A DNA stretch of 36,266 nucleotides from a virus: the IMG/VR virus record IMGVR_UViG_3300032278_004289, positions 1 through 36,266 of that record. One strand, written 5' to 3'. Numbering within the stretch: the first letter of the stretch is position 1; each line of letters starts with the position of its first letter. The notes beneath the pieces are model-generated. The model was given only the letters and a program-made list of their open reading frames with translations, made no database searches and had not been told where the DNA came from. Made by a program: the position numbers and the translations under genes. This document shows, one piece after another, positions 5,760 through 35,267 of the stretch.

Positions 5760-5776
5760 CGGCGCGCGCGGGCATG

Positions 5777-6253: not shown

Positions 6254-6261
6254 CGCCAAAT

Positions 6262-6278: not shown

Positions 6279-6303
6279 GCCGAGAAAAAACAGGCTTGCG
6301 TTA

Positions 6304-6320: not shown

Positions 6321-6331
6321 AACAAGCCGCC

Positions 6332-7862: not shown

Positions 7863-7865
7863 CGC

Positions 7866-9701: not shown

Positions 9702-9734
9702 GGGCGTGAAGCGCATTGAGCAGATCGGCGCGCG

Positions 9735-11375: not shown

Positions 11376-11453
11376 GGCTTCGGCCTCCTTTTGCCGGGGG
11401 GATGCTGGCTGCATCTTGCGCGCGCCGATCGCACCGACGCGCGGGGGGTGCAG

Positions 11454-12697: not shown

Positions 12698-12855
12698 GCC
12701 ACCAGCTCCTCGATGCTCTCGATCATCCAGCCGTTGATGAAGATGCGTTCGCCGGTTTCGGCGTCCCATGCCTCAAAGCGCGTGTCGAAATCGGTGTCCT
12801 CGGCGACTTCGACTTCCAAGTCGTACATGCCGGATGAGATCAGGTAGCGCTTCAT
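12694..12855 (-). CDS. Hypothetical small acidic protein, 53 aa
   Basis: A 53-aa acidic protein, MKRYLISSGMYDLEVEVAEDTDFDTRFEAWDAETGERIF..., likely a single small beta-type domain. No motif. Held by ATGA overlaps to the ardC start and to the gene upstream. The acidic composition resembles other small phage early proteins; role unknown. Confidence 0.75.
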   Translation of the reverse strand: MKRYLISSGMYDLEVEVAEDTDFDTRFEAWDAETGERIFINGWMIESIEELVA

Positions 12856-14983: not shown

Positions 14984-15258
14984 CATCGCCCGCTTCCCAC
15001 GCAAGCGTGCCGGAAAAACGGCACAGCTTCGCCGACCGGCTGCACCGAGTGATGGCACTCGACAAAGCAGGCGACCTGGTCGGGAAGGCGGTGCTGGCCG
15101 ACGCGATGGGCATGCCGGTTCGGACGCTGCGGTCGTACAGCGCCGTCGAGCGGCGCCTGCCCGACGCGGCGCTGATCGAAGCGGCGCAGGCGCTGGAGGC
15201 CAAATGTGCCGAAATATCGGCACATGCAGCGCTGCTGCGCGGGCTGGCGGCAGCATGA
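14980..15258 (+). CDS. Small HTH protein between terminase genes
   Basis: A 92-aa protein with a plausible helix-turn-helix: VGKAVLADAMGMPVRTLRSYSAVERRLPDAAL (residues 34-65), with a helical C-terminus (AAQALEAKCAEISAHAALLRGLAA). Coupled by ATGA to both terminase genes. Its place suggests a packaging-associated DNA-binding protein; the division of labour with the 269-aa protein is unclear, and it could itself be the true site-recognition subunit. Confidence 0.75.
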   Translation: MTSPASHASVPEKRHSFADRLHRVMALDKAGDLVGKAVLADAMGMPVRTLRSYSAVERRLPDAALIEAAQALEAKCAEISAHAALLRGLAAA

Positions 15259-17091: not shown

Positions 17092-17610
17092 ATGACGGAC
17101 GAAACCATCACGGTCGAATATGATCTGGGCGAAGTGATTGCCGGTACGGTCGACGATATCGTCGCCAAGCTGGCGTCGATGACAGCTGCGGAGCTGAACG
17201 AACTCCACGAGCGCGAGGAAGCGGGCAAGAACCGCGCGACATTGCTGGCGGCGATCCACCGCGAGATCAAGGTGCGCGCGGAGCAGGACGGCGAAGACTT
17301 GCCGCCCGCCGAGACTGACGATCCTGTGTATGATGGCTGGTCGATCGATCTTCTGGGCGAGGACGAACAGCCGGTCGCGCTGCCGCCGATCGCGGTTGAT
17401 CCCGATCCTGCTGCGATCGCCAGCGACTGCAAGTTCATGCGCCAAATCGAAATCGGCGCGCACATGCCGCGAATGACGATCATCGCGGCGGTGCTGCGGC
17501 TCAACGACGCACCGCGTGCGCGCGCCGATCTGGTGTTTCCGGTGACGGCCGGCGCTGGGCAGGCGGTGACGTTTGCGGCCGGGACGTTCGCGTTCAAGCC
17601 GATCGCCTGA
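17092..17610 (+). CDS. Hypothetical phage protein with ELNELHEREEAGKNR helix motif, 172 aa
   Basis: Not assigned. An acidic N-terminus leads to VDDIVAKLASMTAAELNELHEREEAGKNRATLLAAIHREI (residues 19-58), a motif of SAP/HeH-like short helix pairs found in phage proteins. A linker is followed by a C-terminal beta-rich domain (IGAHMPRMTIIAAVLRLNDAPRARADLVFPVTAG) that could be a virion accessory domain. The ATG at 17092 is preceded by AGGAGGTCGAA, the best ribosome site in the late region. Confidence 0.7.
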   Translation: MTDETITVEYDLGEVIAGTVDDIVAKLASMTAAELNELHEREEAGKNRATLLAAIHREIKVRAEQDGEDLPPAETDDPVYDGWSIDLLGEDEQPVALPPIAVDPDPAAIASDCKFMRQIEIGAHMPRMTIIAAVLRLNDAPRARADLVFPVTAGAGQAVTFAAGTFAFKPIA

Positions 17611-17635
17611 TCGCGCCAGCATAAAGGACGGAAGC

Positions 17636-19300
17636 ATGTTCGACGCCGCGACCATCGAGCGCAACCAGGCCCGCATGCAAAGCGCGCGGTCGAATTTCGA
17701 CAGCCTGTGCGGCGAGCTCGCGGCGTTGATCATGCCCGAAGCGCGCGAGGGCTGGCACGGCACGCACTACAGCCAAGGGGTGCAGCTGACCAACCAGCAA
17801 TATGACGAATATGGCGCGCAGGCGCATGCCGACGGCACCAGCGTTTTCGAGCAATTCACGATGCCGCGCGGCCAGAAATGGCAGAAGATCAGGATTGCCA
17901 ATGATCGCATCATGGAAAGCGTAGTCAATGCCCAGTGGCTCGAAGGGCTGGAAGACCTGATTTTCATGATGCGCAACGATCCCAAATCGGGGTTCGTCAG
18001 CAACATTCACCAGTCCGCCGAAAGCCTGCTGGCATTCTGGGGGCAATCGATGTGGGTCGACAAGCGCGTTGACGACTATGGCCGCTTTGCCGGGATATCC
18101 TATCAGTCGGAGGCAGTCAGCGGCATCTGGATCGATCGCGATGCCGAAGGCAATGTGATGCGCGTGCATCGGAAGGTGCAGCTGTCGGGAGAGGCGCTGG
18201 TGCGCAAGTTCGGCGATGAAGCCCCCAAGCTGGCGCGGGAGGCGATGGCGCAGGACAAGCCGCGCCGCGACGACATGTTCGACATCATCCATGTGATCGA
18301 ACGCAATCCGAACATGATCCCCGGCCGCGCCGACATGGCGGGCAAACCGTGGATCGGCTGTTATTTCTCGGTGCGCGGCAAAGAGGTTTTCAAGACCGGC
18401 GGCTATCGCACGCTACGCCGGATCGTCAGCGTTTTCCGCCGCGCGCCGTCCGAAACCTATGGCCGCAGCAACAACATGCAGATCCTGCCAGCGCTGCGCG
18501 CGTCGCAAGTGATCATGCAGGACCGGGTGCTCGCGACCGAGCTGGCGGTCAAGCGCCCGCTGCTGTCGATGGATGATGAACTCGACCAGGGCGTGATCGA
18601 CATGTCGCCGTGGGGCGTGACCTATGGCGGGCTGGACGAAGCGGGCCGCGAAAAGCTGAAGCCGATGATGGAGATTTCCGACCTGTCGGCAGCCGGATCA
18701 TTGCACGCGGAAATCCGCCAAGTGATCGACCGCGCCAATTTCCGCGACCTGATGCAGATCAACCGCGAAATCAAGACGCATGTCAGCGTGGCACGGACGA
18801 TGGAGGAAATCGCCGAAAAGGGCACGCTGCTGTCGCCGCTGGCCCGGCAGGAACAGGAATGGTTCGCGCCGATGCTCGATGCCGAGCTCGATATCCTGTG
18901 GGAAGCGGGATGGCTGGACGACATGCCGCCCGACATCGAGCGCTGGGTTGCCGAAGGCGGCGGGTTGAACGTCGTTTACGACAATGACCTGTCGCGGATG
19001 CAGCAGGCCAATGAAGCGATCGGCTATCTTCGGACCGCCGAACAAGTCAGCAGCCTTGCCGCCGCCGCGCCGCAGGTGGTCGACATGTTCGTGCGCGAAT
19101 ATCCGCTCGAGCGCGTGATCCCGGGGCTTGGCAAGGTAAACGGCATCCCGGCGAGCTGGCGCGCGACCGACGAAGAAAAGCAGGCGATGGACGAAGCCAA
19201 GGCGCAGCAGGCGCAGGTGCAGCAATTGCTGCAGGCCGCGCCGATCATCGCCGAAACCACCAAGAACCTGGCGGCAGCGGAGGGCGCCGGTGTCGCTTGA
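17636..19300 (+). CDS. Portal (head-tail connector), podovirus type
   Basis: The dodecameric gate through which DNA enters and leaves the capsid. The 554-aa product has the layout of podoviral head-tail connector proteins: N-terminal helices (NQARMQSARSNFDSLCGELAALIMPEA), a central WxxxxxxGISYQSEAVSGIWIDRDAEGNVMRVHRKVQLS region, AETYGRSNNMQILPALRASQVIMQD and a helical barrel-like C-terminus with Gln/Ala-rich tail. The ATG at 17636 has AAAGGACGG upstream. Length is close to T7 gp8 (about 536 aa). The overlap with the next gene is 11 nt. Confidence 0.88.
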   Translation: MFDAATIERNQARMQSARSNFDSLCGELAALIMPEAREGWHGTHYSQGVQLTNQQYDEYGAQAHADGTSVFEQFTMPRGQKWQKIRIANDRIMESVVNAQWLEGLEDLIFMMRNDPKSGFVSNIHQSAESLLAFWGQSMWVDKRVDDYGRFAGISYQSEAVSGIWIDRDAEGNVMRVHRKVQLSGEALVRKFGDEAPKLAREAMAQDKPRRDDMFDIIHVIERNPNMIPGRADMAGKPWIGCYFSVRGKEVFKTGGYRTLRRIVSVFRRAPSETYGRSNNMQILPALRASQVIMQDRVLATELAVKRPLLSMDDELDQGVIDMSPWGVTYGGLDEAGREKLKPMMEISDLSAAGSLHAEIRQVIDRANFRDLMQINREIKTHVSVARTMEEIAEKGTLLSPLARQEQEWFAPMLDAELDILWEAGWLDDMPPDIERWVAEGGGLNVVYDNDLSRMQQANEAIGYLRTAEQVSSLAAAAPQVVDMFVREYPLERVIPGLGKVNGIPASWRATDEEKQAMDEAKAQQAQVQQLLQAAPIIAETTKNLAAAEGAGVA

Positions 19301-20596: not shown

Positions 20597-20624
20597 TTGA
20601 CAGATTTTGTCCCCTGCGGATAAA
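20597..20624 (+). promoter_or_regulatory. Major capsid promoter with operator O7
   Basis: TTGACA (20597-20602, a perfect -35) and GATAAA (20619-20624) are spaced 16 nt. The palindrome TTGTCCCCTGCGGATAA (20607-20623) lies between and forms the -10. It follows the terminator by 18 bp. Confidence 0.75.
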
Positions 20625-20801
20625 AACCGCGTCATCCTTCGGCCTCACCGCGCAAGCGGACCCGGATGCTTCGGGGTAAAGTGCCCCCGCCCACGGCGCG
20701 CGACAGTGCCGAGACGGACCCGGAGCGGTGGCCGCGCCACCGGAGCCGGCCTCTCCAGTCGAAACCAAGCATCAACCCCTTGTTTTCATCTGGAGGCACG
20801 C
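20625..20801 (+). other. Leader (5' UTR) of the major capsid gene
   Basis: About 170 nt with no gene. It contains a GGTGGC-CGC-GCCACC hairpin (about 20726-20740) and C-rich stretches, and ends with TGGAGGCACGC before the ATG at 20802. An in-frame extension from 20607 is open by chance but overlaps the promoter, so it is rejected. A structured leader may stabilise the highly expressed capsid mRNA. Confidence 0.6.
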
Positions 20802-21737
20802 ATGCCCGCTGAATTTTCACAGAATTTGCGCGATATCGAGTTCGTCAACAATGTGACGATGGTCCTGCAGCAGGAACCCGGTATCCTCTATCCGCTCGCC
20901 GGGATGACCATGTCGGGCGAGGGATCGACCGAAGTCAAGATCGAGGATCGCTTCGGTCAGATGACGCTGGGTCGCAAGACCGAGCGCAACGGCGACACCA
21001 ACTATGTCGATGTGCAGAACACCCGCCGCTTCGCCAAAAAGCCCGGGTCCTATGACGTCGCGACGCTGATCGACCGCAACGATGTGAAATCGACGTCGGT
21101 CGATCCGAAGTCGCCGCTCGTCATGGCTGCGGCGATGGCAACCAAGAAATATCACGACGATCAGTTCCTGGTCGGCTGGTGGGGCAATGCCTGGGAAGGC
21201 GTGAGCAGCGCCACGACGGCGGTACCGTTCACCAGCGGCAACAAGATCGCGGTCGATCTGGAAGTTTCGGGCACCAACACCGGCCTGACGCTCGCCAAGC
21301 TGAAGGAGCTGAAGCGCCAGCTGCAGAAGTCGAACGTCAATTTCCGGCAGGAACAGCCGATCATCCTGCTCGACCCGGACGCCGAAGTCGATCTGTTCGG
21401 GATCACCGAATACGTCAATTATTTCTACAACGACAAGAAGCCGCTGGTCGATGGCGAGCTGAAGCCGTTCATGGGCTTCCGCTTCCTGACGGCCAACCTG
21501 GGCGATGCGGTTGCCTATCCCGAGGCCGCCGCGCTGTTCAAGCCGTCGTCGGTCAACCGGCTGCCGGTCATCGTGCCGTCGGGCATCGCGCGGGTCGTGT
21601 GGACCGAATTCTTCGGTCGCGTCGAGCCCAACATGAACAAGAAATATTCGGAACAGATTTACGCCGAAGCGGAGGCAACCGTCGTCCGCACCGACGAGAA
21701 AAAGGCCTGGTACATCGAAACCCGGCCGCTGTCCTGA
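20802..21737 (+). CDS. Major capsid protein
   Basis: A 311-aa protein in the position of T7-like gp10 and consistent with a HK97-fold shell subunit: MPAEFSQNLRDIEFVNNVTMVLQQEPGILYPLAGMTM (N-arm), DRNDVKSTSVDPKSPLVMAAAMATKKYHDDQFLVGWWGNAW (spine helix/A-domain type), GLTLAKLKELKRQLQKSNVNFRQEQPIILLDPDAE and a C-terminal SGIARVVWTEFFGRVEPNMNKKYSEQIYAEAEATVVRTDE. No extended N-terminal scaffold domain is present; the scaffold is a separate gene. The start at 20802 has GGAGG 7 nt upstream. It is transcriptionally isolated by its own promoter and by terminators before and after it. Confidence 0.85.
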   Translation: MPAEFSQNLRDIEFVNNVTMVLQQEPGILYPLAGMTMSGEGSTEVKIEDRFGQMTLGRKTERNGDTNYVDVQNTRRFAKKPGSYDVATLIDRNDVKSTSVDPKSPLVMAAAMATKKYHDDQFLVGWWGNAWEGVSSATTAVPFTSGNKIAVDLEVSGTNTGLTLAKLKELKRQLQKSNVNFRQEQPIILLDPDAEVDLFGITEYVNYFYNDKKPLVDGELKPFMGFRFLTANLGDAVAYPEAAALFKPSSVNRLPVIVPSGIARVVWTEFFGRVEPNMNKKYSEQIYAEAEATVVRTDEKKAWYIETRPLS

Positions 21738-22389: not shown

Positions 22390-23013
22390 ATGCCAACCGC
22401 TGCCCCAAGCCAGACCGATATCGCCAACGGCGCGCTGAACGCCGTCGGATCGACCGAGGTCCTGACAAGTATCGACAGCAACAGCCATTCGGCAAAGCGC
22501 ATTCGTACTGCATGGCCCGAAGTGCTGCGCACGCTGCTGGCCGAACATCCGTGGAATTTCGCGGTGCGGCGGGCAATGCTGGTCGAGGATGGGGAAGCGC
22601 CGCAATTCGGCTACAAGCGCCGGTTCCGCCTGCCCGCCGATGCCCTGCGCATCCTGCCGTTCGCGCGCGACGACGACAATTATCGCAAGACCGAGCGCGA
22701 AGGCGCATTCATGCTGGCCGACGAGCCGGGGCCGATGCCGATCCGCTATATCGCGCTGATCGAAGACACGTCGCAATGGGCGCCGCATTTCGCGACGGCG
22801 ATGAAATTCGCGCTGGCAGCGACGATCGCCGAAGGCGTGACGCAAAGCGAAAGCATCAAGCAGGACATGCAGCGCGCCGCCGAAGACGCGCTGATGGATG
22901 CCAAAAGGCGCGACGGGCTCGAGACGACGCAGGTGCAGCGCGGGCGCCCGATCGTCAACAGCCGCTGGGTCGCGGCGCGCCGCAGCCCCTATGCCGGTGA
23001 TGGCCTGCGGTGA
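22390..23013 (+). CDS. Tail tubular protein A-like (T7 gp11 type)
   Basis: The 207-aa product begins with the helical pattern of podoviral tail tubular protein A (SQTDIANGALNAVGSTEVLTSIDSNSHSAKRIRTAWPEVLRTLLAEHPWNFAVRRAMLV), followed by YKRRFRLPADALRILPFAR and a helical C-terminal half. It forms the gatekeeper ring between portal and nozzle. It overlaps tail tubular B as GTGA. AGAGGCG precedes the ATG. Confidence 0.85.
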   Translation: MPTAAPSQTDIANGALNAVGSTEVLTSIDSNSHSAKRIRTAWPEVLRTLLAEHPWNFAVRRAMLVEDGEAPQFGYKRRFRLPADALRILPFARDDDNYRKTEREGAFMLADEPGPMPIRYIALIEDTSQWAPHFATAMKFALAATIAEGVTQSESIKQDMQRAAEDALMDAKRRDGLETTQVQRGRPIVNSRWVAARRSPYAGDGLR

Positions 23014-25298
23014 GCCGGATCACGCCATCGCAGACCAATTTCAACGGCGGCGAGATTTCGGCGCGGTTGCGCGGGCGCACCGAACTGAACATCTATGACA
23101 TCGCGCTCGACGCCCTGACCGGGTGGGTGCCGCTGCCCGAAGGCGGGCTTGAAGCGTGTCCGGGGCTGATCCAGGTCGCGCCCGCGAAAGGGCCGTGCCG
23201 CCTGATCCCGTTCGATTACAATGCCACACAGGGCTATGTCATCGAAATGAGCGCCGGGACGGCGCGCTTTTACACGAACGATGCCCGCATCGAGGATGAA
23301 GGCGCGCCGATCGAGCTGGCAATCCCATATGACAAGCCCGCGATCGACGCGCTGATGTGGGAACAGAGTTACGACGTGCTCTATCTGTTTCACCGCGCCT
23401 ATCAGACGCGGCAGCTGGTGCGCAGCGCCGCCGACAGTTTCGTGCTGTCGCCGCTGGCCTTCACCGATGGCCCGTTCGAGGATCGCAACAAGGATGAAGC
23501 GCTGTTCGTCTATGCGAGCGGCGTCGATGGCGATGTGACGCTGCATGCGCAGCGCGGCGGGGCGCCCGAAGCCCTGTTTGCGGTGGGCGATATCGGCGGG
23601 CTATTCCAGATCGAGGTCGATGATTTCGGATCGATTTCGAGCTGGGAACCGACGATCACGGTGACGCCGGGGCAATATCTGACATCGAACGAACGGGTGT
23701 ACCGCGTTGTGGGCGGCGCGACCCGGACCGGCACGGTCGCGCCGATCCACAATGCAGGCGTCGAGTGGGATGGCATCGGCAAGGGCAAAGACATCAACGA
23801 CAAGGATGCCGGCGGCGTGCAGCTGGAATATGTCTGCAACCGGCTGGGGATCCTGCGCATCACCGGCTTTACCGATAGCGCGACGGTGACGGCGACGGTG
23901 CTGAAGCGCCTGCCCTTCACCGCCACGAACAACAATTACACCTATACCGGCGGATATTATGATCGCGCGTGGGGCGCCTATACCCCGCCCCACGGCGCGG
24001 TCGTTTACCAATATGGCAGCTGGCGGTGGCGGTTCGGCGCCTTTTCGACGCGGCGCGGCTGGCCTTCGAGCGGGATCATCTGGAACCAGCGGCTGGTTCT
24101 GGCGAAGGATGACCGCCTGTATGGCAGCGTGGTCGGCGACCTGCAAAGCCATGCGACGTACAACGAGCTGGGCGAAGTCAGCACCGACCAGGCCTTTGTC
24201 GTCCGAATCGACGATGCCAATCCGATCGTCGCGATGATGACCGGCGAAAGGTTGCTGGTGATGACCGCCAGCGGCATGTTCTCGGTCGGTCCGAGCAACG
24301 CGGCGCAGGGCGTGGGACCGGGCAACATCAAGTCGGTGCGGCAGAACAACGAAGGCGCCGCACCACGCCCGACGGTGATGCTCGATGGCCGCCCGATCTA
24401 TATCAGCAAGAACCGCCGCCGCGTGATCGAGGCCGATTATTCGGCGCAGCGCGACCGCATCGGCGCGAATGACCTGACGCGCTACGCGCGCCACATGGGC
24501 GGCGCGCGGTTCACCGATATCGTGTCGGCGCGCGACCCCAACCGGCTGCTGTGGGCGCTGCGCGGCGATGGATCGCTGGCCTGTGCAGCCTATCTGCCCG
24601 AAGAACAGGTGCTGGGCTGGTCAAACCGTCCGCTGGCGAGTGGCGTCGCCGCCCGATCGATCGCGTCGATCACCGACCCGTTGGGAGAACATCATCAGCT
24701 GTGGGTGGCCGTGCAGATCGGCAGCGACTGGCATGTGACGCGGATGGATCAGTTTCGCCAGGAAGGCGATGCAATCGATCCGGTGATGACCGACATGGCA
24801 GTGCAGTATCAAGGCGCGCCCGCGACGACATTCGGGCCGGTGCCGTGGTTTGCCGACAGGGTGATCGATGTTCAGGCCGACGGTGCGCTGTATCTGGACC
24901 TGCCATGCACCAGCGATGGTCACTTCACGCTGCCCGTCGCGGCATCCTACGTCGATGCGGGGCTGAAAGCCGATTGCATGCTGCGCACGCTGCCGAATTC
25001 GAAAGGCAGCGACAATGGCGCAACGCTGGGCAAGATGCAGCGGATTTCGCGGCTGACGATCGATGTCTGGGAAGCGCGCGCCTTGCAGGTGCAGGTGCAA
25101 GGGTGTGATCCGATCGATCTGGAACAGTTGCGAACCACGAGCCTGACCGAGCGCGGTTTCGAGCGCGACACCGGGCCGATCGTGATCGAGGATACCGGCA
25201 ATCTGGACCGCCTGGGCCAGATAATCGTGCGTCGGATCGGCCCCGCTGCGGCAACGCTGCGCGCGATCTGCCCGACGATCGAGGTGCAGCAGCGATGA
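23010..25298 (+). CDS. Tail tubular protein B-like (T7 gp12 nozzle type)
   Basis: The 762-aa product matches podoviral nozzle proteins: SQTNFNGGEISARLRGRTELNIYDIALDALTGWVPLPEGGLEACPGL at the N-terminus, then FDYNATQGYVIEMSAGTARFYTND, FHRAYQTRQLVRS and a central beta-propeller-like region (SRRGWPSSGIIWNQRLVLAKDDRLYGSVVGDLQSHATYN..., MLDGRPIYISKNRRRV...). It is the hexameric tail nozzle that contacts the fibres. GTG start in a GTGA overlap with tail tubular A; length is close to T7 gp12 (794 aa). Confidence 0.88.
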   Translation: MSRITPSQTNFNGGEISARLRGRTELNIYDIALDALTGWVPLPEGGLEACPGLIQVAPAKGPCRLIPFDYNATQGYVIEMSAGTARFYTNDARIEDEGAPIELAIPYDKPAIDALMWEQSYDVLYLFHRAYQTRQLVRSAADSFVLSPLAFTDGPFEDRNKDEALFVYASGVDGDVTLHAQRGGAPEALFAVGDIGGLFQIEVDDFGSISSWEPTITVTPGQYLTSNERVYRVVGGATRTGTVAPIHNAGVEWDGIGKGKDINDKDAGGVQLEYVCNRLGILRITGFTDSATVTATVLKRLPFTATNNNYTYTGGYYDRAWGAYTPPHGAVVYQYGSWRWRFGAFSTRRGWPSSGIIWNQRLVLAKDDRLYGSVVGDLQSHATYNELGEVSTDQAFVVRIDDANPIVAMMTGERLLVMTASGMFSVGPSNAAQGVGPGNIKSVRQNNEGAAPRPTVMLDGRPIYISKNRRRVIEADYSAQRDRIGANDLTRYARHMGGARFTDIVSARDPNRLLWALRGDGSLACAAYLPEEQVLGWSNRPLASGVAARSIASITDPLGEHHQLWVAVQIGSDWHVTRMDQFRQEGDAIDPVMTDMAVQYQGAPATTFGPVPWFADRVIDVQADGALYLDLPCTSDGHFTLPVAASYVDAGLKADCMLRTLPNSKGSDNGATLGKMQRISRLTIDVWEARALQVQVQGCDPIDLEQLRTTSLTERGFERDTGPIVIEDTGNLDRLGQIIVRRIGPAAATLRAICPTIEVQQR

Positions 25299-25726
25299 TC
25301 CGCGTCGATCCGTTTCGGGAAAGCGATCTGGCGCTGATCCGCGTTCAGCCGGTACAGGCAGCCGAGCTTGCGGCGTCGGCGCATGCCGCGGCGTTCTATG
25401 CGCGCGCGGGCAATGCGTTCACCGTGCGCGACCGTCATGACCGGGTGGTGATGTGCGCCGGCGCGCTGGAACATCATGCCGAGCATGCGAGCCTGTGGTG
25501 CGTGCTGGCAGCCGACATCGGCGGCGCGATGATGCTGGCGCTGACACGCCGGGTCAGAATGTTCATCAAGCGCCAGCGCCATCGTCGGCTCGACTGCCAG
25601 GTACGACTGGCACATCGTGAGGGCCATCGCTGGGCCGAGCTGTTGGGCCTGACGGTGGAAACCCATCTGACCGACTATTATCCGAACGGTGAAACCGTCG
25701 TTTTCTATCGGAGGCGTGCGCGATGA
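25295..25726 (+). CDS. Internal virion protein A-like, GNAT fold (T7 gp13 type)
   Basis: The 143-aa product has the acetyltransferase-like layout seen in T7-type gp13: FRESDLALIRVQPVQAAEL, MCAGALEHHAEHASLWCVLAADI and, at the C-terminus, VRLAHREGHRWAELLGLTVETHLTDYYPNGETVVFY. Whether it has acetyl-CoA activity is unknown; the canonical Q/RxxGxG/A loop is not evident, so a structural role in assembly is more likely. It is the first of four ejection-module genes and couples by ATGA on both sides. Confidence 0.7.
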   Translation: MIRVDPFRESDLALIRVQPVQAAELAASAHAAAFYARAGNAFTVRDRHDRVVMCAGALEHHAEHASLWCVLAADIGGAMMLALTRRVRMFIKRQRHRRLDCQVRLAHREGHRWAELLGLTVETHLTDYYPNGETVVFYRRRAR

Positions 25727-26289
25727 GTTTTGCCGGACCCCTGAGCATCGCGCTGAATGCCATCGGCGAGGTCGCGGGCGGATTGCAGCAGAATACCGCG
25801 CTCCGTGCGCAGGCGGCGGTCGACGATCAGAATGCGCAGCGCACGCTGTTGCAGACCGAGCAGCAGGCATTGCAGACGCGCCGCGACGAACGGCGCCAGT
25901 CGGGCGCCCTGTTGGCGGCGATGGCGGGCGACGGGGTGCAACTGGGCACCGGATCGACCGCAGACGTTCTGGCCGAAGCGGCGGTGCAACGGGAATATGA
26001 AATCCTGAACCTGCGACGCCAGGGCGCGCAACAGGCCAATAATCTGTACCAGGCCGCCGAGGACAAGCGGCATGCAGGCCGACAGGCGATCGTCAACGGG
26101 TTGTTCGGCGCGGTTGCCGGCGCGATCAACGGCGTCAGTCAGCAGCGCGCGCTGCAACAGGCGCAGCGCCAGCGCGAAAAAGAGCGCACGACGATATTGG
26201 GCGGCGGGACCAATCCGGTGCCGCGACCCAGCGTGAGCGGCGGGCGCACGACGTTGAACACCACGAATTCTGCGGGAGGCGGGCGATGA
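25723..26289 (+). CDS. Internal virion protein B-like (T7 gp14 type)
   Basis: A 188-aa Gln/Ala-rich helical protein: a hydrophobic N-terminal segment (GPLSIALNAIGEVAGGLQQ), central coiled helices (NAQRTLLQTEQQALQTRRDERR, AAVQREYEILNLRRQGAQQANNLYQAAED) and a second hydrophobic stretch (AIVNGLFGAVAGAINGV), then a Gly/Thr/Asn-rich tail. In T7 this position encodes an ejection protein that forms a pore in the outer membrane. ATGA overlaps on both sides. Confidence 0.75.
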   Translation: MSFAGPLSIALNAIGEVAGGLQQNTALRAQAAVDDQNAQRTLLQTEQQALQTRRDERRQSGALLAAMAGDGVQLGTGSTADVLAEAAVQREYEILNLRRQGAQQANNLYQAAEDKRHAGRQAIVNGLFGAVAGAINGVSQQRALQQAQRQREKERTTILGGGTNPVPRPSVSGGRTTLNTTNSAGGGR

Positions 26290-28181
26290 CAGACGTATTC
26301 CGTTCGCGCGTCAACACCGATGTCCAGCCGGTGCAGCAGCGCGATCCGGCGGCGTTCCGCAGCGGTGTCGTCGATGGCGTCGAGAAGGTCGGGCAGGCGT
26401 TGCAGGCGGCGGGCGCGCGCGATGCCGCCGTCAAGGGGCAGATTTACGAAAGCGACACGCGGCTGATGGAGATCGAGCGCAAGCGCGCCATCGCCGCCAA
26501 ATCGGCCGAAGTGCTGACCCGGCTGCCCGACGTGCAGGACCGGATCAACACGACGATTACCGAGCTGCGCCGCAAATACCCGGCAGGCGGCGCCGAATAT
26601 GTCGCGAAAGCCAATGAAGCGATCACGGCACAACTGAAGGATTTCGGCGCGACACTTGGCGATACGCCCGAAATCCGCCAGCAGTTCGAGCCGGTGATCG
26701 CGCGGCTGGCGGTGGGGACGCGCGCCGAGCAGGTCGACTGGTCGATCAAAACCGGCGCGGCGGTGCAGGGCCAGCAAATCGACGGTGCAGTCGACAAGTT
26801 GAGCAACGCGCTGAACGATCCGGCGATGGACCGGCCAACGGCCGCGCAGCGGCTCGATACGGCAATGACCGCGATCGACGCGATGGTCGGTGAGCTGGAC
26901 GTCGACGAAGCCGTGAGGCTGAAGCTGAAAAGCGCGTATCGCGATCGGTTGACGACGGGCTTTCTGAACGGGCGCATGGCGGCGGGCGATCACCAAGGCG
27001 TTCGCAGTGCGCTCGACAGCGGCCAGCTCGACTATATCGATCCCCGGCTGAAGGACAATTTCAGAAGCCAGACCGACGTCGCCCAGGCGCAGGACGAGCG
27101 CGTTGCCGCGCAGGCGGTCGCCGAGCAGCGCGACGCGGTGCGCGATCAGGTGGCGGCGTACAAGAAGCGGATCGAATTCGGTGAAGTGCCGACGCAGGCC
27201 GAGGCGACCGCGCTCTACAGCGCCGCGCAGGCCGTCAAGCTGGACCCCGCCGATCTGGTCGAAATTCGCGGACTGTCGGTGCAGGTCGGCATCAACCGCC
27301 AATATGCGCCGATGATCGGCAAACCGGGCGGTGCCGATGCCATCCGCCGTGCGACCGAGCGGCTGCAGGCGAAGCGCGACGGCGGCACCGCAACGCCCGA
27401 CGAGCAGATCGCGCTGACGCAGCTGACCAAGCTGGTCGACAAGGCCGACGACGCCGAAGTCGCCAATCTGAAGCCGCTGGCCGCGAAGGGCCCGGAAGGT
27501 GCGTTGCAGGCGATTGCGCAGTTGCGGGGCAGCCGCGACGCGGTGTTCGACCGCGCCGAGAAACTGGCGCCCGGGCTGGGAGCGGTGGCGCTGCTGGCGC
27601 CGGGTTATCGCCGCGACGCGCTGGAAGGGCGCGCGATCCGGCAATCGGGCAAGGAGGGCGATGCCAGAAAATGGGGCGATCCCAAGGTGGTTGAGCAAAC
27701 CGCCGCAGGTGCGCTGGGGCCGATCGCGGGCGAGCTGATGCGCGGCGGGCAATATGATGCGCTGGTCAACACCGCCTGGGACATGATGGCGAGCTGGAAC
27801 GCGCGGCACGGCGTGAGCGGTTTCAACGGCGCCAAATTCAGGGAAGCGCTGATCTATGCCAGTGGCGGTCGCGCGCGGCCGACGGGTGCGATCGAAGGCG
27901 GCATCCAGAATTTCCGGGGGCGCCCGGTGCAATTGCCCGACTGGCAGACTGCCACCGAATTCGACGGGATGATCGCGCGCACTGATTTTTCGAACGCGAT
28001 CTATGCAAACGGCAAGCCCGCCGTAAAGGCGGATATCGTCGCCAATTACACCCCGCGCTACATTGGCGAGGATGAACAGGGGCGGTTCCTGTATCACATG
28101 GTGGATGCCGAAGGTGGCGCGCTGATCGACAAAGGCCGGTCGCCGATCGTGCTCGTTGCCCGCAAACCGGCAGGGCGATAA
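26286..28181 (+). CDS. Internal virion protein C-like ejection protein
   Basis: A 631-aa mostly helical protein in the T7 gp15 position. Long amphipathic helices (DAAVKGQIYESDTRLMEIERKRAIAAKSAEVLTRLPDVQDRI, DVAQAQDERVAAQAVAEQRDAVRDQVAAYKKR) make an elongated core, with a globular C-terminal 130 residues (NAIYANGKPAVKADIVANYTPRYIGEDEQGRFLYHMVDAEG). It likely forms the inner conduit used to deliver DNA through the envelope. No enzymatic motif. The TAATG junction couples it to the 1395-aa gene. Confidence 0.75.
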   Translation: MTDVFRSRVNTDVQPVQQRDPAAFRSGVVDGVEKVGQALQAAGARDAAVKGQIYESDTRLMEIERKRAIAAKSAEVLTRLPDVQDRINTTITELRRKYPAGGAEYVAKANEAITAQLKDFGATLGDTPEIRQQFEPVIARLAVGTRAEQVDWSIKTGAAVQGQQIDGAVDKLSNALNDPAMDRPTAAQRLDTAMTAIDAMVGELDVDEAVRLKLKSAYRDRLTTGFLNGRMAAGDHQGVRSALDSGQLDYIDPRLKDNFRSQTDVAQAQDERVAAQAVAEQRDAVRDQVAAYKKRIEFGEVPTQAEATALYSAAQAVKLDPADLVEIRGLSVQVGINRQYAPMIGKPGGADAIRRATERLQAKRDGGTATPDEQIALTQLTKLVDKADDAEVANLKPLAAKGPEGALQAIAQLRGSRDAVFDRAEKLAPGLGAVALLAPGYRRDALEGRAIRQSGKEGDARKWGDPKVVEQTAAGALGPIAGELMRGGQYDALVNTAWDMMASWNARHGVSGFNGAKFREALIYASGGRARPTGAIEGGIQNFRGRPVQLPDWQTATEFDGMIARTDFSNAIYANGKPAVKADIVANYTPRYIGEDEQGRFLYHMVDAEGGALIDKGRSPIVLVARKPAGR

Positions 28182-31100
28182 TGCCGGGTGTTGTCCTTTC
28201 ATCGCGCCTGTCGCGCGCGCCGGTGCAGCCAAGCCAGCGGCGCGGCCCCGATCCGACGTTTCTGGAAACGCTGGATGCCACAATTCGCGCGTCGGCAGAT
28301 GCAGAAGGCGGCGACAAGGCACGCGAACGAGAGGCCATCGACAAAATCTATGGCGATGTCGTCGATCAGCTCGATCGTCAGGGATTGAGCAATCCGGCCT
28401 ATGTGCGCCGCGATATCACCAACCTGTTCCAGCGTAGCTATGACGGCGATGCCATCTGGCAGGGGATCACCCGCGCGCGCGCGCGGAACCCGCAAGCCTT
28501 TGCAAATTTGCCCAAATCGCAGGCCGAATTCATCGATTGGGCAACCGCAGACGTGCGCAGGGAAACGATCGACCGCGCTGATCGCGCGGCGCGGGGATCT
28601 GGCGCTGCAAGAACGCTGGGCATGCTCGCCTATGGCGCGAGCGATCCGGTCAACATCGCGACCATTCCAATCGGCGTCGGGGGTGCTGAAACAATCACCG
28701 GCGCGATTTTGCGCGAAGGCATTTTCAACGCCAAGATCGAAGCGCTGCAAACGCCGATCACGGCAATGGAGCGTGAAGCGCGCGGCGAGAAATACGGCGT
28801 CGATCAGGCGTTGACCGACATTGCGTTGGCCGGCGCTGCCGGTGCCGTTTTCGGCGGTATCGGCAAATCATTCGAAAAAGTTGTGGACGGACGCGAGGCG
28901 GCGATCGCCAAGATCCATGACGTGCTGCCGCCATCGCTGAAAAAGCGCTGGGCATCGCCAGCTGAAATCCGCACGGCCGACCTGCCCGACATCGCCGAAG
29001 CGGTCATCGGGCGCGACAATATGAGCGCCGACGAACGCGCCGCTGCCGACCTGATCCGGCGCGAGGCCGAAGTTGATGCTGCCAGCCCGTTCGAGCGCAA
29101 TGGCGCGGGGGCGGCGGCACATCAGGAAGGCTTTGCCGAGGCTCTGGCCGCCGTGATGGGGCAGGCACCAGCGCCGTCACGGCGTGCCGAGCTGCTGGCG
29201 TCGACATCGGCGGGCGGCGCCGTCGGCGGACGGGTCGATACCGGCTTTGTGCCCGCACGCGATGCGCTGAAGAACCGCATTCGCGCGGTCGAGAGCAGTG
29301 GCAATGATGCCGCCGCGTCGAGCGCGGGCGCGGTCGGCCGATATCAGTTTCTGGCATCGACATGGCTGCGATACTACAAACGGCGCTTCGGCGACGGCGA
29401 ATCCGACGCTGCCATTCTGGCGAAGCGCACCGATGGCGCGTTGCAGGAAACGCTGGTCAATGACCTGATCGCCGACAATGCCGCTTTCCTGCGGCGGCAG
29501 GGCGAGGCCGAGACCGCAGGCAATCTGTATCTGGTGCATTTTGCCGGACCCGGCAACGCCCGCAAGCTGTTCGATCTGCCGCCCGAAACTCCGGCGCGCG
29601 ACATATTTTCGGCAGCGGCGATCCGTCATAATCCGTTCCTGCGCGACATGACGGCGGGCGATGTGATCGCCTGGGCGCACCGGAAGATGGACGAGCCGGT
29701 GCCGCCGCGTGCGGGCGCGCGCGCCGTGATTGACGGCGCGGGCAGCGAAGCGGCAGCGGTGCAGGCCGAAATCGACCGGCTGGCCGCCGAACGCCAGACC
29801 CTGCAAAGGCAGGAAGATGCCATCGCCGGCGAAGCGCCGCCGTTGCCCGAGGCGCCGCCGCTTGCGCCCGAGCCGGTGCGCGGGATCGAGCCGACCGAGC
29901 CGTTGCCGCTGCCGCTCGACGGCGCCGACGCGCCAAGGCTGCCCGCCAGCAAGCCGGGGCGGGAGCGCGCTTTCGACGAAAATGGCACGCCGTTCGAATA
30001 TGGCACGGTGAATGTGTCCGACATCAAGGTCGATGCGCAGCTGATGCAGTTCAAGTCAGGCGGTGATGCGGCAGGCCGCACAGCGGCCCTGAAAAGCGAA
30101 GTCAAATGGAAACCGCTGTCGAGCGACCCGATCACGCTGTGGGAGCGGCGCGACGGGACGCTTATCGTCGCCGATGGACATCAACGTGTGGGGCTGGCGA
30201 ACGACGTGCGCGCCCGCGAAGGCCGCGATATTCCGATCCGGGCAGTGATCCTGCGCGAGGCCGACGGCATCACCGCCGGGGATGCCCGGGTGATCGCGGC
30301 GATCAAGAACATCAATCAGGGAACCGGCACGATATTGGACGCTGCCAAGGTTATCCGCACCATCGGGGATGACCGGATTGGCGAATTGCTCAATCAAGGT
30401 GCCAGCGAGAGCGTCGCGCGCCTTGCGCGCGATCTGGCGCGACTGGCCGATGTGCCGTTCGGCGCGGTTGCCAATGGCGTTATCCGCGAAGATTTCGGAT
30501 CGATCATCGGGCGGCTGGTGCCGGAAGGCGAAGGCGTGCAGAACGCAATGATCGACCTTATTGCCAAGACGAAGCCCGCCAACCGGACGCAAGCCGAAAG
30601 CATCGTGCGCGACGGGCTGGCGGCGGGCCTGATCGACGGCCAACAGACCGACATGTTCGGCACGCTCGATATGGCGAAAAGCCTGTTCATCGAACGGGCC
30701 AAGGTTCTTGACGGCGGGCTGCTGCGTTTCAAAAAGCTGAAATCCGTGTTCAATGTGGCGGCGCGCGAAGCCGAGACATTGAAGGGCGCGGGCAACCAGA
30801 TCGACAAGGCGCGATCGGCGCAGGAGGCACTGACCAATGACCAATGGATCGACCTCATCCAGCGACTTTCCAGCACCGCCGGACCCGTCAAAGACGCCCT
30901 CGACGCCGCCGCCCGCGACCTCGCCGGTGGCGCAAAACTCGCCGAAGCCGTGGACGGATTTGTCCGACGCATCCGCGAGCTGGACCCCCAGGAGCTCATC
31001 ATGGCTGGGCGGGATGCTGCGGGCGATGGCCCGGTTCGGCCCGCCGGAGGAATAGCCGACGCCGAGGCATCGCTGTTCGACACCCCCGCCGCGAACGAAG

Positions 31101-32368
31101 CGGCGGCTGCCCCGTTCCGCGACCCCGACGGCGCGGCGGTGCAGCAGCAGGCCGACAACCTGTTCCACGATTTGGAAGCTCCACCGATCGACCGCTCAAG
31201 CTCCGCCATAGAAGGCGATGAGCCGTTATTTCAGCTACGCGAAACGAAAGCCGAGGCAAGGCGGCGGCTGACCGCCATACGCCAGGACGCTCAAAACAAA
31301 GCGATAGATCGCCTGCTGGCCGAAGAAGCGGGTACAATCACGCCGGAGCGTCGCCTTGGGGCGATCGCACAAATTCGCAAGATTTTGATGTCCGAGGCGG
31401 CTCACCCCAACCCGGATCGATTTAAAAGCAAGGTCGAGAACTTGCTGGGCGATCTTCACGAAGCGAGCGCTATGCGTCGCTATCGCGAACGCGATCGTCA
31501 GAGCGGTGCAACCTATATTCGCGAACGACTGCTGCGCGCTCAACGCGAGGGCTACATAAGCGAGGACGGCGTTGCCTTCACCGAATGGTTCGTCCGGCAA
31601 AATCCCGCGCTTCTCGACAATCTTGCCATTTCCATTCGGCAATCGAAAGCCGGCGAGGAGCGCGCGGCGGGAGCCTATTATCCCGCAGGGCGCCTGATGA
31701 TGCTGTTCAAAGGTTCGGTCGCGGACACCACCGTCGTCCACGAAGTGCTGCACCACACCGAGCGGATGATGCCGTATGACATGCGGGTGGCAATCCGGCG
31801 CGAGTGGGCGCGACGTGTGGCGAGCCTGGCCGCGAGCAATGATGAAAGAGCAAAAGCGTTCGCGACTGCGATCATCGAAAATGATCAAGCGCCAACCGCA
31901 GCGACGCGCGAAGCTGTCACGCGTCTGATGCGGCAACAGTCAGACTATCATCTGGTAAATCCATCCGAATTCTGGGCTGTCCATGCGACCGATCTTCTAA
32001 GTCGCCGTCACGAAGCAGGGTCGATCTGGGGACGGATACAAATCTGGCTTGGCGAAATGGTGCAGCACGCGCGCGCGGCGCTGGGTTTGTCGAACGACGC
32101 GCCAGTCTTGCGCGCGCTCAATCATCTGTTGGAACGCGGCGATGGTGAAATCAACGGGCCGATGCTGTCACAGGGGCGGCGTTTCAATCAGATGCGCAAC
32201 GAAACGGGCTCGGCCGAACAAACGATCTTCGCTCCTGCAGGCGGCGTGCTGCGTGCCGAACTGCCGCTGCGCGTGGCCGACGATGCGCCCGAACTGACGG
32301 CGGCGCAGCTGGTCGAAAAACTGCACCGCGAGGAAGCTGAATTGATCGCGATAAGGGATTGTCTTTAA
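28181..32368 (+). CDS. 1395-aa multidomain ejection protein: transglycosylase, ParB-like and HExxH
   Basis: Predicted giant internal virion protein (T7 gp16 position). In order: N-terminal helical region; Gly/Ala-rich hydrophobic segments (about 150-225); a lytic transglycosylase domain near 360-460 with catalytic-type glutamate E371 (RAVESSGN) and AVGRYQFLASTW, which would cut peptidoglycan during DNA injection; a Pro-rich linker (about 540-590); a DdrB/ParB-like domain (about 600-930) with VADGHQRVGLAND (DGHQR at 665-669) and AAIKNINQGTG; and a C-terminal part (about 1000-1395) with HEVLH (1187-1191), a zinc-protease motif. Multidomain cargo of this kind matches the polyvalent protein concept (DdrB-ParB and peptidase domains). 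QTDMF occurs at 822-826. The 3' third uses more A/T-ended codons and may be a later addition. Confidence 0.8.
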   Translation: MPGVVLSSRLSRAPVQPSQRRGPDPTFLETLDATIRASADAEGGDKAREREAIDKIYGDVVDQLDRQGLSNPAYVRRDITNLFQRSYDGDAIWQGITRARARNPQAFANLPKSQAEFIDWATADVRRETIDRADRAARGSGAARTLGMLAYGASDPVNIATIPIGVGGAETITGAILREGIFNAKIEALQTPITAMEREARGEKYGVDQALTDIALAGAAGAVFGGIGKSFEKVVDGREAAIAKIHDVLPPSLKKRWASPAEIRTADLPDIAEAVIGRDNMSADERAAADLIRREAEVDAASPFERNGAGAAAHQEGFAEALAAVMGQAPAPSRRAELLASTSAGGAVGGRVDTGFVPARDALKNRIRAVESSGNDAAASSAGAVGRYQFLASTWLRYYKRRFGDGESDAAILAKRTDGALQETLVNDLIADNAAFLRRQGEAETAGNLYLVHFAGPGNARKLFDLPPETPARDIFSAAAIRHNPFLRDMTAGDVIAWAHRKMDEPVPPRAGARAVIDGAGSEAAAVQAEIDRLAAERQTLQRQEDAIAGEAPPLPEAPPLAPEPVRGIEPTEPLPLPLDGADAPRLPASKPGRERAFDENGTPFEYGTVNVSDIKVDAQLMQFKSGGDAAGRTAALKSEVKWKPLSSDPITLWERRDGTLIVADGHQRVGLANDVRAREGRDIPIRAVILREADGITAGDARVIAAIKNINQGTGTILDAAKVIRTIGDDRIGELLNQGASESVARLARDLARLADVPFGAVANGVIREDFGSIIGRLVPEGEGVQNAMIDLIAKTKPANRTQAESIVRDGLAAGLIDGQQTDMFGTLDMAKSLFIERAKVLDGGLLRFKKLKSVFNVAAREAETLKGAGNQIDKARSAQEALTNDQWIDLIQRLSSTAGPVKDALDAAARDLAGGAKLAEAVDGFVRRIRELDPQELIMAGRDAAGDGPVRPAGGIADAEASLFDTPAANEAAAAPFRDPDGAAVQQQADNLFHDLEAPPIDRSSSAIEGDEPLFQLRETKAEARRRLTAIRQDAQNKAIDRLLAEEAGTITPERRLGAIAQIRKILMSEAAHPNPDRFKSKVENLLGDLHEASAMRRYRERDRQSGATYIRERLLRAQREGYISEDGVAFTEWFVRQNPALLDNLAISIRQSKAGEERAAGAYYPAGRLMMLFKGSVADTTVVHEVLHHTERMMPYDMRVAIRREWARRVASLAASNDERAKAFATAIIENDQAPTAATREAVTRLMRQQSDYHLVNPSEFWAVHATDLLSRRHEAGSIWGRIQIWLGEMVQHARAALGLSNDAPVLRALNHLLERGDGEINGPMLSQGRRFNQMRNETGSAEQTIFAPAGGVLRAELPLRVADDAPELTAAQLVEKLHREEAELIAIRDCL

Positions 32369-32609: not shown

Positions 32610-35267
32610 ATGACCCTTGCCCGCTGTATCGCCAAGCTGGGGGGTGAAGGCAAGATCAGCCCCGAGCGGATCGCCGAGGCGACGGCGCGCTATGACGAGC
32701 TGCTCGCCAATTACGAACCCCGGTTCGGGCGCGCGGCAGCCGAGGCGATGGCGAGCGAAAAGGCGCTGGCGGGGATGGAGCGCGATTTCGGGCGCGCGCG
32801 TCGCAACGCCGTGCTGCAGGCCAGGGCGCAGCAGCGGATCGCCGACAATGCCGCGCGGCTATATGACGGCGGCAAGCGCGGCGGGCCGATCGATCCCAAC
32901 GGGCTGGTCGCGCATCTGGTCGATGATGCGCGGGCGCCGTTCGGCAACGTCGAATATCGGTGGAAGAACATCCGCGACACCGCGCACCGGATGATCGGCG
33001 ATATTCTGTGGCGTCACCGTTCCAATGTGGTCGGCGATGCCCGCCGCGCCAGCGACTTCGACGATGTAGTCGACGCGCTGGAAGGGATCGACCGGGGTAT
33101 CAACGCGCGCGAGATGGCCGATGCGGTGAAGCGCACGACGGACTGGCTGCGCGCCAGGTTCAACGCGGCCGGCGGCGACATCGGCCTGCGCGACGATTGG
33201 GCCTTGCCGCATGCGTGGGACGGCGTGAAGGTCGGGCTGGCCAAGTTCGAGACGTGGCGCGCCGACATTCTGGACAATATCGATCGCGCCAAGATGATCG
33301 ACTATGCGACCGACGAGCCGATGGGCGATGCCAGGCTGGATCAGCTGTTGCGCGACATCTATGATCAGCAGGTGTCGAGCGGCGAAATCGGCCGCACGCC
33401 ATCGGGCGCGGTGCAGGGTCGCAGCATGGCGAACCGCCGGATGGAAGCACGGGTGCTGCATTTCGTGCCCGGAGGCTGGCGCCGGGTAAACGAGAAATAC
33501 GGCGTCGGCGGCCCGTATGAAGCGCTGACGCATTACATCGACAACATGGCGCGCGACACGGCGGCGATGGAGATATTGGGGCCGAACCCCGACGCGACGA
33601 TCCGGTGGATGAAGGATCTGACGCGCAATACCGCATTCACCAGCCCGAGCCTGATGCAGCGGCTGAACGTATCGGGCAAGGGCCGGGAAATCGACGCGAT
33701 CTGGGAGGAAATCACGCGTCGCAACCGCGAGGCGGTGCGCCCCAATGTCGCGCTGTTCTTTTCGGCCGTGCGCAACTGGCAGTCGGCGACAAAGCTGGGC
33801 AGCGCCACGCTGTCGAGCCAGGCCGATATCGCGACGGCCGCGCTGACGCAGCGGTTCAACGGCCTGCCCGCCACCGCTGCGCTGCGCACGATCATGGGTG
33901 AATTCAACCCCGCCGATGGAACGCACCGTGCGTGGGCGCGGCGCGAGCTGATGATCAATGAAGAAATGATCGGGCGGGCGGCGGCATTCGGGCGCCAGCA
34001 TTTCAACGAGGACGCCGGCGGCGCAATCACCGCGCCGACGATCGAGGCGCTGAAGGACGGCCGGATCAGCCCGACCGAATATCTGGCGTTGCAGACGCGC
34101 GCCAAGCTGGGCAGCGCCAATGAAATCGCGCGGCGGGCCAGCAGCGGCGTGATCCGGGCGAGCCTGCTCAACCAGTGGACGATGCGGCTGCGCAGCGCCG
34201 TGAATGCGTCGTTCTGGAACGCGATCACCAGCTATGCCGACCTCGACTATGCGGGGCTGAACGATGGATTTCGCGGCTTCCTTGGCCGTTATGGCATCGA
34301 TGCCGCGCGGTGGGACGCGCTGCGCAGCACGCCGCGCAAGGCAATCGGCGATACCGAGTGGATCGTGCCCGACAACATTGCCGACCAGGACCTGCGCAAC
34401 CGTATCGTCGAAGGGGTCTTCACCGAGCTCGATTATGCGGTGACGACAGGCGGCATCCGCCAGCGCGCGGCGCTGACGATCGGGCGACCGGGTGAAATCA
34501 AGCATGAAGTGATCAAGAGCGGCGGGCAGTTCCTGCTGTTTCCGATCACGGTGCTGTGGCGCCACGGCGGGCGGGCATGGCAGCTGACCGACCCGAAAGC
34601 CAAGGCAAGCTATGCCGGGGCCTTTTTCATCGCGACGACGCTGATGGGGGCACTGTCCGAACAGTTGAGCGAATTGTCGCGCGGGAAGGACCCGCGACCG
34701 ATGACCGACGAGAATGGCGCGCCGCGCGGCGATTTCTGGGGCAAAGCGATCAGCCGCGGTGGCGCGCTGGGCTATTACGGCGAAATCTTTGATCATGTTG
34801 CGGCCGAGAATGGGCGCACGCTGAAGGACATCGGCAACGTCCCGCTGGTCGGCAGCATCGACAACTGGACGCGGCTGGTGATCCGCGAGCCGGTGAAGGC
34901 CGCGCGCGGCGCGATGGGCGCGACCGACCGCAAGGGCGAGCCGGTGCAGGCGAATTTCGCCAAGGCAGCGGCCCGTATCGCGCGATACGAAGTCCCCGGC
35001 GACAATCTGTGGTATCTGCGCCTCGCCTATGAGCGCGTGCTGCTCGACCAGCTCGACGAACTCGGCGGGCGCAGCCCTGGCGAGGCGAAGCGGCGGATGG
35101 AACAACGGGCCGCCGAAGAAGGCACGCGCTATTTCGCGCCGATCGGCAGCGGTGTGGGCGGCACGCGACTGCTGGCGCCCGACACGATGGCGCCGCCCGA
35201 CCCGCAGCGCGCGCCCGACCTGACCAATGCCGTGCGCCCGACGCCGGTTGCGCCGCCGCCCGAATAG
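32610..35267 (+). CDS. Large ejection (internal virion) protein, 885 aa
   Basis: A mostly helical 885-aa protein: basic/acidic amphipathic helices in the first 130 residues (ISPERIAEATARYDELLANYEPRFGRAAAEAM), a central region with WQSATKLGSATLSSQADIATAAL and a hydrophobic ASYAGAFFIATTLMGALSEQL near residue 675, then a C-terminal helical stretch (VPGDNLWYLRLAYERVLLDQLDEL). It resembles the C-terminal, helical part of gp16-type ejection proteins, as though the T7 gp16 function were split between this protein and the 1395-aa protein. No enzyme motif seen. GGAGA precedes the ATG at 32610. Confidence 0.75.
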   Translation: MTLARCIAKLGGEGKISPERIAEATARYDELLANYEPRFGRAAAEAMASEKALAGMERDFGRARRNAVLQARAQQRIADNAARLYDGGKRGGPIDPNGLVAHLVDDARAPFGNVEYRWKNIRDTAHRMIGDILWRHRSNVVGDARRASDFDDVVDALEGIDRGINAREMADAVKRTTDWLRARFNAAGGDIGLRDDWALPHAWDGVKVGLAKFETWRADILDNIDRAKMIDYATDEPMGDARLDQLLRDIYDQQVSSGEIGRTPSGAVQGRSMANRRMEARVLHFVPGGWRRVNEKYGVGGPYEALTHYIDNMARDTAAMEILGPNPDATIRWMKDLTRNTAFTSPSLMQRLNVSGKGREIDAIWEEITRRNREAVRPNVALFFSAVRNWQSATKLGSATLSSQADIATAALTQRFNGLPATAALRTIMGEFNPADGTHRAWARRELMINEEMIGRAAAFGRQHFNEDAGGAITAPTIEALKDGRISPTEYLALQTRAKLGSANEIARRASSGVIRASLLNQWTMRLRSAVNASFWNAITSYADLDYAGLNDGFRGFLGRYGIDAARWDALRSTPRKAIGDTEWIVPDNIADQDLRNRIVEGVFTELDYAVTTGGIRQRAALTIGRPGEIKHEVIKSGGQFLLFPITVLWRHGGRAWQLTDPKAKASYAGAFFIATTLMGALSEQLSELSRGKDPRPMTDENGAPRGDFWGKAISRGGALGYYGEIFDHVAAENGRTLKDIGNVPLVGSIDNWTRLVIREPVKAARGAMGATDRKGEPVQANFAKAAARIARYEVPGDNLWYLRLAYERVLLDQLDELGGRSPGEAKRRMEQRAAEEGTRYFAPIGSGVGGTRLLAPDTMAPPDPQRAPDLTNAVRPTPVAPPPE

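Follow-up and report, generated by a model that had tools for sequence, protein, structure and literature searches.

The predicted gp16-position ejection protein of a temperate podovirus combines a lytic transglycosylase, a ParB/Noc-like domain and a zincin, and may be a carrier with a slot for exchangeable cargo

Ejection proteins are usually regarded as conduits. The concept of polyvalent proteins was already described by Iyer et al. (2017; PMC5512222), who report fusions of DdrB-ParB with lysozyme and of zincins with ParB. Here we analyse the 1395-residue product of an open reading frame (ORF) at 28181-32368 (+) of the IMG/VR record IMGVR_UViG_3300032278_004289, the full 36,266 bases of which are called the window in the following. 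As in the polyvalent proteins, a peptidoglycan enzyme, a ParB-superfamily domain and a zincin are predicted in a phage protein beside virion genes, and as at least two unrelated domains share one chain that adjoins virion genes, the polyvalent character proposed in an earlier note on this DNA holds. Unlike the proteins described there, the window protein carries a ParB-type domain of a ParB/Noc-like family that has no Pfam model, and no second ORF with a lytic transglycosylase, ParB and zincin together was found among the fetched loci, which were the best 80 of each relative scan.

Other described systems share single traits with this protein. T7 gp16, the C-terminal part of which reaches the cytoplasm (PMC8954989), is likewise large, contains a transglycosylase and is encoded by the last internal-virion gene after gp15; in contrast, the window transglycosylase is located at residues 355-505 and not N-terminally, the chain carries extra cargo, and sequence homology to T7 gp16 was not detectable among the Pfam, PHROG and PDB matches. 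The N4 virion RNA polymerase (gp50), an ejected giant protein of which a zincin is part (PMC12633501), has a zincin homologous to ours by profile comparison, but there it is fused to an RNA polymerase instead of ParB and a transglycosylase, and its motif reads HELVHAS instead of HExxHHxE. In P1 DdrB, a head protein (PMC9024508), a ParB-superfamily domain is followed by a C-terminal zincin as in the window, the HExxHHxE stretches of the two (HELGHHLEYSNP in P1 DdrB versus HEVLHHTERMMP in the window) are equally spaced and the zincins show weak profile similarity (P 0.0029); unlike the window protein, P1 DdrB has a ParB of a different family (P 0.76) and lacks a transglycosylase. Chromosomal ParB, Noc and KorB, which are cytidine triphosphate (CTP) clamps, share with the window the N domain and the helix-turn-helix (HTH) domain of the predicted fold as well as the motif order (QFK, DGHQRxxxA and KN in the window versus QPR, GERRxRA and EN in M. 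xanthus ParB, aligned through the divergent relative L110). They differ in that the window has His667 for the Glu of GERR and Lys709 for the Glu of EN, and in that its domain sits in a virion-type protein. Giant DarB-like proteins of the Erwinia phages PEp14 and Stean contain the same peptidase family (35% identity over residues 1058-1329, in a protein of 4914 residues), and the PEp14 gene adjoins a virion structural protein gene; these proteins are annotated as DarB-like antirestriction (DNA methylase-like) or as transglycosylase, and no ParB/Noc-like domain was detected in them.

The ORF begins with an ATG, is free of internal stops, and its start codon shares the last base of the stop codon of the upstream gp15-like gene (TAATG, one-base overlap). 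It is embedded in the order tail tubular gp11, gp12, phrog_4177, phrog_418, gp15-like gene, the ORF itself and phrog_684; this synteny with tail and internal-virion genes confirms the T7-type gp16 position that the earlier note had assigned to it. The three motifs named there, E371, DGHQR (665-669) and HEVLH (1187-1191), are all found at these residues. The gene and its parts are as follows.

28181-32368, + strand: gene of the gp16-position ejection/internal virion protein, 1395 residues (intact ORF; synteny with podoviral tail and internal-virion genes)
28181-29230, + strand: N-terminal region, residues 1-350, kept in relatives (blastp, hydropathy)
29243-29695, + strand: lytic transglycosylase (SLT/GEWL-like), residues 355-505, catalytic E371 at codon 29291-29293
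29996-30928, + strand: predicted ParB/Noc-like domain, residues 606-916, comprising an N domain (about 606-735), an HTH domain (about 736-820) and then family-specific C-terminal helices (AlphaFold, Foldseek, IMG/VR relatives)
31202-32194, + strand: predicted zincin metallopeptidase cassette, residues 1008-1338, 331 residues (68% identity to locus L091; conserved motifs; N4 profile)
32291-32365, + strand: C-terminal helical tail, residues 1371-1395, ending in IRDCL (tail profile; cysteine statistics)

We consider it fairly probable that this large gp16-type ejection protein of a temperate podovirus is a carrier with a slot for exchangeable cargo. This view builds on domain identities, synteny, cassette exchange, cargo variability and tail conservation, all computed here. 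The full-length protein gave no pattern match in IMG/VR, and single-sequence searches of Pfam and PDB returned nothing beyond the transglycosylase. By tblastn against phage records the protein was matched in separate pieces, and therefore its domains were searched and studied as separate modules: residues 11-503 match a faecal phage scaffold, residues 612-903 match Ruegeria phage 45A6, Dunaliella viridis virus SI2 and Prochlorococcus phages P-SCSP1, and residues 1058-1329 (933-1322 in one record) match the Erwinia phages Stean, PEp14 and Pavtok. Dunaliella viridis virus SI2 (HQ332136.1, 8966-11341), which has an algal host on record, possesses a podoviral ParB-type ejection gene together with phage tail genes and looks like a bacteriophage.

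The combination of modules varies among the fetched loci. Transglycosylase and ParB occur together in 13 ORFs of the first set and in 13 of the transglycosylase-based set, with some contigs in both, and ParB and peptidase share a chain in one locus, L110, where LPD38 is present as well. The L110 protein (3849-11642, +; 2598 residues) contains the ParB-like domain, a possible weak C5-methylase-like region, the peptidase and LPD38, and is the most divergent ParB member. The phages nearest to ours by core genes (L269-L271, gp12 53-62% identical) have neither ParB nor peptidase, and most relatives in the same gene position are devoid of the zincin. The peptidase cassette is 68% identical to that of L091 over exactly residues 1008-1338, against 29% identity for gp12 and 35% for gp17, and therefore the cassette has moved between phages. 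Two relatives (L011 and L016) align in one run up to residue 1000 without the cassette, and a third (L282) aligns as 14-503 plus 615-1000, again without it, and ends in the same C-terminal tail; the cassette thus looks inserted between residue 1000 and the tail.

The region after the transglycosylase is also variable. In the 44 relatives that lack the ParB/Noc-like domain it holds DdrB-ParB (2), PBECR1 (3), RadC (1) or GNAT (1), and the majority of these 44 regions match no assigned domain. One of them, L303 (6879-10439, +), carries a true DdrB-ParB (PF18763, E 6.4e-31) at residues 678-798, in the place of the ParB/Noc-like domain, so that one slot hosts two different ParB-type families. In another protein of the same family (L272, 6933-9875, +) a PBECR1 nuclease domain is located behind the transglycosylase, at residues 612-702. 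Three ParB members without a transglycosylase (L024, L034 and L083) contain a Zeta-toxin kinase (E 1e-17 to 5e-22), which follows the ParB-like domain and precedes the cysteine tail at the C-terminus. The best reading of the protein family is that of a cargo carrier with conserved ends and an exchangeable middle.

The conserved C-terminal end is marked by a cysteine. C1394, second from the C-terminal end, is the sole cysteine of the window protein, and among 96 non-redundant proteins from loci encoding homologues of the window gp11, gp12 or gp17, 80 have a cysteine within the last 30 residues, where its frequency is 2.8% as against 0.11% elsewhere. A tail profile trained solely on transglycosylase proteins without ParB or peptidase, applied to 12,496 ORFs, matches the C-terminus of most transglycosylase-ParB proteins and almost nothing else. 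It gives 19.4 bits on the last 40 residues of the window protein, a value reached by none of 2000 tail shuffles, and only 11.9 bits on the full-length protein. The probable role of the tail is in packaging or docking.

At the other end, blastp over residues 1-543 against the same protein of other podoviruses gives 32-44% identity. The hydropathy maxima of the whole protein fall at residues 146-235 and are weakly hydrophobic, and residues 1-350 are possibly a membrane or core part. The transglycosylase with E371 that the earlier note had recognised is borne out: E371 (RAVESSGND) is invariant across alignment A6 of 13 homologues, and by phmmer residues 360-467 match the Pseudomonas phage endolysin gp144/lytic transglycosylase structure entry 3bkh (E 7e-5). 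The Pfam transglycosylase matches (Transglycosylas, E 7.8e-4) are below the curated cut-offs. In locus L330 a separate downstream ORF of 325 residues (14904-15878, +) is a second transglycosylase-type copy, perhaps an endolysin.

The domain at residues 606-916 has at least 527 relatives in IMG/VR, and no Pfam family matches the window copy. Its AlphaFold model, built on 39 sequences, has a mean predicted local distance difference test score (pLDDT) of 90.3, and Foldseek against PDB returned 13 matches with E<1e-3, every one of them to ParB, Noc or KorB (best 5.7e-6), with alignments that span the N domain and the HTH domain over about 220 columns. Pfam ParB_N (PF02195) gives no match above its curated cut-off; below it L110 (E 3e-6), L051 (E 1e-3) and 1 of 39 family members (E 5.8e-4) are found. 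The divergent member L110 also aligns with M. xanthus ParB and bridges the family to Pfam ParB_N, and this alignment pairs Q623 with the Q of QPR, and DGHQRxxxA (VADGHQRVG; DGHQR codons 30173-30187) with GERRxRA. Q623, G632, G666, R669, N710 and D720 are about 100% conserved in the family, where the conservation of GH[QN]R is partly selected because 84 of 85 aligned sequences match a search pattern that contains it. The model and these alignments support a ParB-superfamily domain, with a predicted N domain of the ParB/Noc/KorB type and an HTH. The domain most likely binds DNA under the control of a nucleoside triphosphate (NTP). The ParB half of the ParB/DdrB-like assignment made in the earlier note therefore stands and the DdrB-like label does not: membership in DdrB-ParB was rejected by hhalign (P 0.76, and P 0.6 against L303, where the control of DdrB against L303 gave 1.3e-25), and no A1 or A4 member matches PF18763 in Pfam.

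The peptidase began from a weaker position. When the 1395-residue protein was shuffled 2000 times, an HExxH arose in 28 cases, and thus HEVLH alone is weak evidence, near chance. This doubt is removed by the joint conservation of two motifs, HExxHH (VVHEVLHH, HEVLHH at residues 1187-1192; HExxH codons 31739-31753) and SE-x-WA with the distal E1263 (codon 31967-31969): 39 of 40 relatives found by the distal pattern only, without the HHTERM pattern, keep HExxHH, and all 12 found by the proximal pattern only, without EFWAV, keep SE-x-WA. Profile comparison with the peptidase region of the N4 virion RNA polymerase (69 sequences) gives a probability of 86% and P 5.5e-6 and pairs both HExxH and the distal Glu (NEFMAW in N4, SEFWAV in the window), where unrelated profiles give P >= 0.15 against the window peptidase. 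The structure model (pLDDT 78.7) has a helix, three strands, the HExxH helix and then a helix carrying E1263, which is the order of elements given for polyvalent zincins (PMC5512222). Judged from these comparisons, residues 1008-1338 are a zincin related to the N4 virion RNA polymerase metallopeptidase, in agreement with the zinc-protease motif proposed earlier. Profile searches had been named as the check on the ParB-like and HExxH assignments; single-sequence Pfam returned neither family, an outcome overturned by family profiles and by the structure model.

A Foldseek search of the peptidase model against BFVD gave one strong match, a Caudovirales protein, and the Pfam MPTase-PolyVal model does not match the cassette, yet it does match an ArdC-type anti-restriction protein of the window (11753-12769, -; ArdcN E 1.5e-31, MPTase-PolyVal E 1.6e-46). 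The latter is a second zincin of the same phage, different from that of the ejection protein. Weak Pfam matches of peptidase relatives to GvpG, SHOCT and similar families were dismissed as they are not common to the whole family. In a scanned genome collection, 13 relatives of the peptidase turned up in bacterial assemblies, mostly metagenome-assembled genomes; none of these relatives has a transglycosylase or ParB in the same ORF. A PDB sequence search using the family profiles A4 and A5 yielded nothing meaningful.

Several observations weigh against the assignments of the two cargo domains or against their activity. The full-query template-modelling (TM) scores of the ParB-like model against ParB are low (0.25-0.35), which is probably due to the longer query and a different domain arrangement; the Noc DNA-binding domain alone reaches 0.64-0.66, normalised to its own length, but with E of about 0.4-1. 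Profile comparison with 14 canonical ParBs is uninformative, giving P 0.015 in the wrong register. Among the canonical CTPase residues (Q52 and E93 in M. xanthus), the former is kept as Q623 in all members, and the equivalent of the latter, the catalytic Glu of GERR, is H667 by motif alignment; hydrolysis of CTP may therefore be lost. For the peptidase, Foldseek against PDB found no zincin and nothing below E 0.15, and to our knowledge the proteolytic activity of the N4 peptidase domain itself is unproven.

If the protein works like T7 gp16 (PMC8954989), its entry part, comprising residues 1-350 and the transglycosylase (355-505), would be packaged into the head, leave it before the DNA and cut peptidoglycan locally. 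The cargo part, a ParB/Noc-like DNA-binding domain of the NTP-binding type (606-916) followed by the N4-type zincin cassette (1008-1338), would reach the cytoplasm as the protein enters with the first DNA. Either within the head or once inside the cell, the zincin may cut its own chain and release the ParB-like domain, which would bind entering or host DNA within the first minutes, and the tail (1371-1395), kept by most relatives whatever their cargo, would act in packaging or docking. Packaging, injection, proteolysis and the target of the ParB-like domain are what we infer in this scheme. A bolder version, in which the protein is a general protein-delivery carrier and a virion-delivered ParB clamp, freed by the adjoining zincin, is loaded at once on the entering phage DNA or the host nucleoid, seems to us distinctly improbable.

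One would argue that the zincin acts in assembly and not in the host, either by processing its own protein or a scaffold in the prohead or as a structural element of encapsidation. This is a tentative but real possibility: P1 DdrB, which also has ParB and a C-terminal zincin, is cut to about 76 kDa before packaging, and in N4, to whose domain the window cassette is related, the peptidase-containing region is needed for encapsidation and the polymerase stays uncut (PMC5512222). However, the strict conservation of the catalytic residues argues against a purely structural role, and since most relatives in the same position have no zincin, it is not generally needed for assembly. That the zincin is instead a host-directed effector, with a cytoplasmic defence or regulatory protein as its substrate, we regard as unlikely. 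The cassette moves between phages with unrelated cores, as effectors do, and the same phage encodes the ArdC-type anti-restriction protein, but the nearest homologues on record are treated chiefly as domains for self-processing or encapsidation (PMC5512222).

For the ParB-like domain, a serious rival to DNA binding is nuclease action: as a DNase/NTPase effector, the domain would nick or degrade the DNA of the host or of a competitor when infection begins. We hold this to be rather doubtful. Iyer et al. propose a nuclease-type effector role for DdrB-like ParB domains, and DGHQR, with its invariant Arg, is similar to the active-site Arg described for ParB/Srx nucleases (PMC5512222). Additionally, a true DdrB-ParB is found in the same position of the close relative L303 and of one other, so that one family may stand in functionally for the other. 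Nevertheless, the model has a complete ParB N domain and HTH, which is more like a DNA-binding clamp than a free nuclease, and a domain that did not discriminate would also endanger the incoming phage DNA. Ordinary structural mosaicism, with middle domains that are degenerate fillers inactive in the host, would fit the dispensability of the cargo at the family level and its absence from the nearest relatives (L269-L271), but the active-site residues are conserved across the divergent relatives examined, and we consider this explanation very unlikely. The carrier with an exchangeable cargo slot is thus the reading that we prefer.

The source phage is, judging from its genes with clear PHROG matches, a temperate podovirus. 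The other features of the window are given below.

1-1284, - strand: integrase (PHROG match)
14940-16838: terminase large subunit (PHROG match)
17573-19300: head-tail adaptor/portal (PHROG match)
20607-21737: major head protein (PHROG match)
22390-23013 and 23010-25298: tail tubular proteins (PHROG matches)
25723-26289, + strand: internal virion protein, gp14-like (phrog_418, E 1.1e-14)
26286-28181, + strand: gp15-like upstream gene, 631 residues (position; homologues in the same order in relatives)
32610-35267, + strand: downstream virion structural protein (phrog_684, E 5.8e-123)

Homologues of the gp15-like gene in relatives are 25-41% identical and keep the gene order, and the gene has no Pfam or PHROG match. 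The phrog_684 virion protein is also encoded near most relatives of the ParB family and of the transglycosylase-ParB proteins. No tRNA genes were found in the window. Two long ORFs overlap on opposite strands, 7815-9716 (-, 633 residues) and 7866-9701 (+, 611 residues), and the minus-strand ORF has no PHROG or Pfam match.

The ParB/Noc-like family, the combination of three modules and the tail appear to be new. The family without a Pfam model, the exchange of an N4-type cassette and a cargo slot bracketed by the tail go beyond Iyer et al. (2017), and the conserved single-cysteine tail is not mentioned in the part of PMC5512222 available to us. Hundreds of proteins belong to the ParB/Noc-like family, which escapes routine annotation for lack of a Pfam model. 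The conserved tail is a concrete candidate for the signal that directs packaging or docking, and it might serve to load proteins of choice into podovirus particles. This ejection family would also deliver varied enzymes (ParB/Noc-like, DdrB-ParB, PBECR1, RadC, GNAT, Zeta kinase and zincin), with its ends mostly kept.

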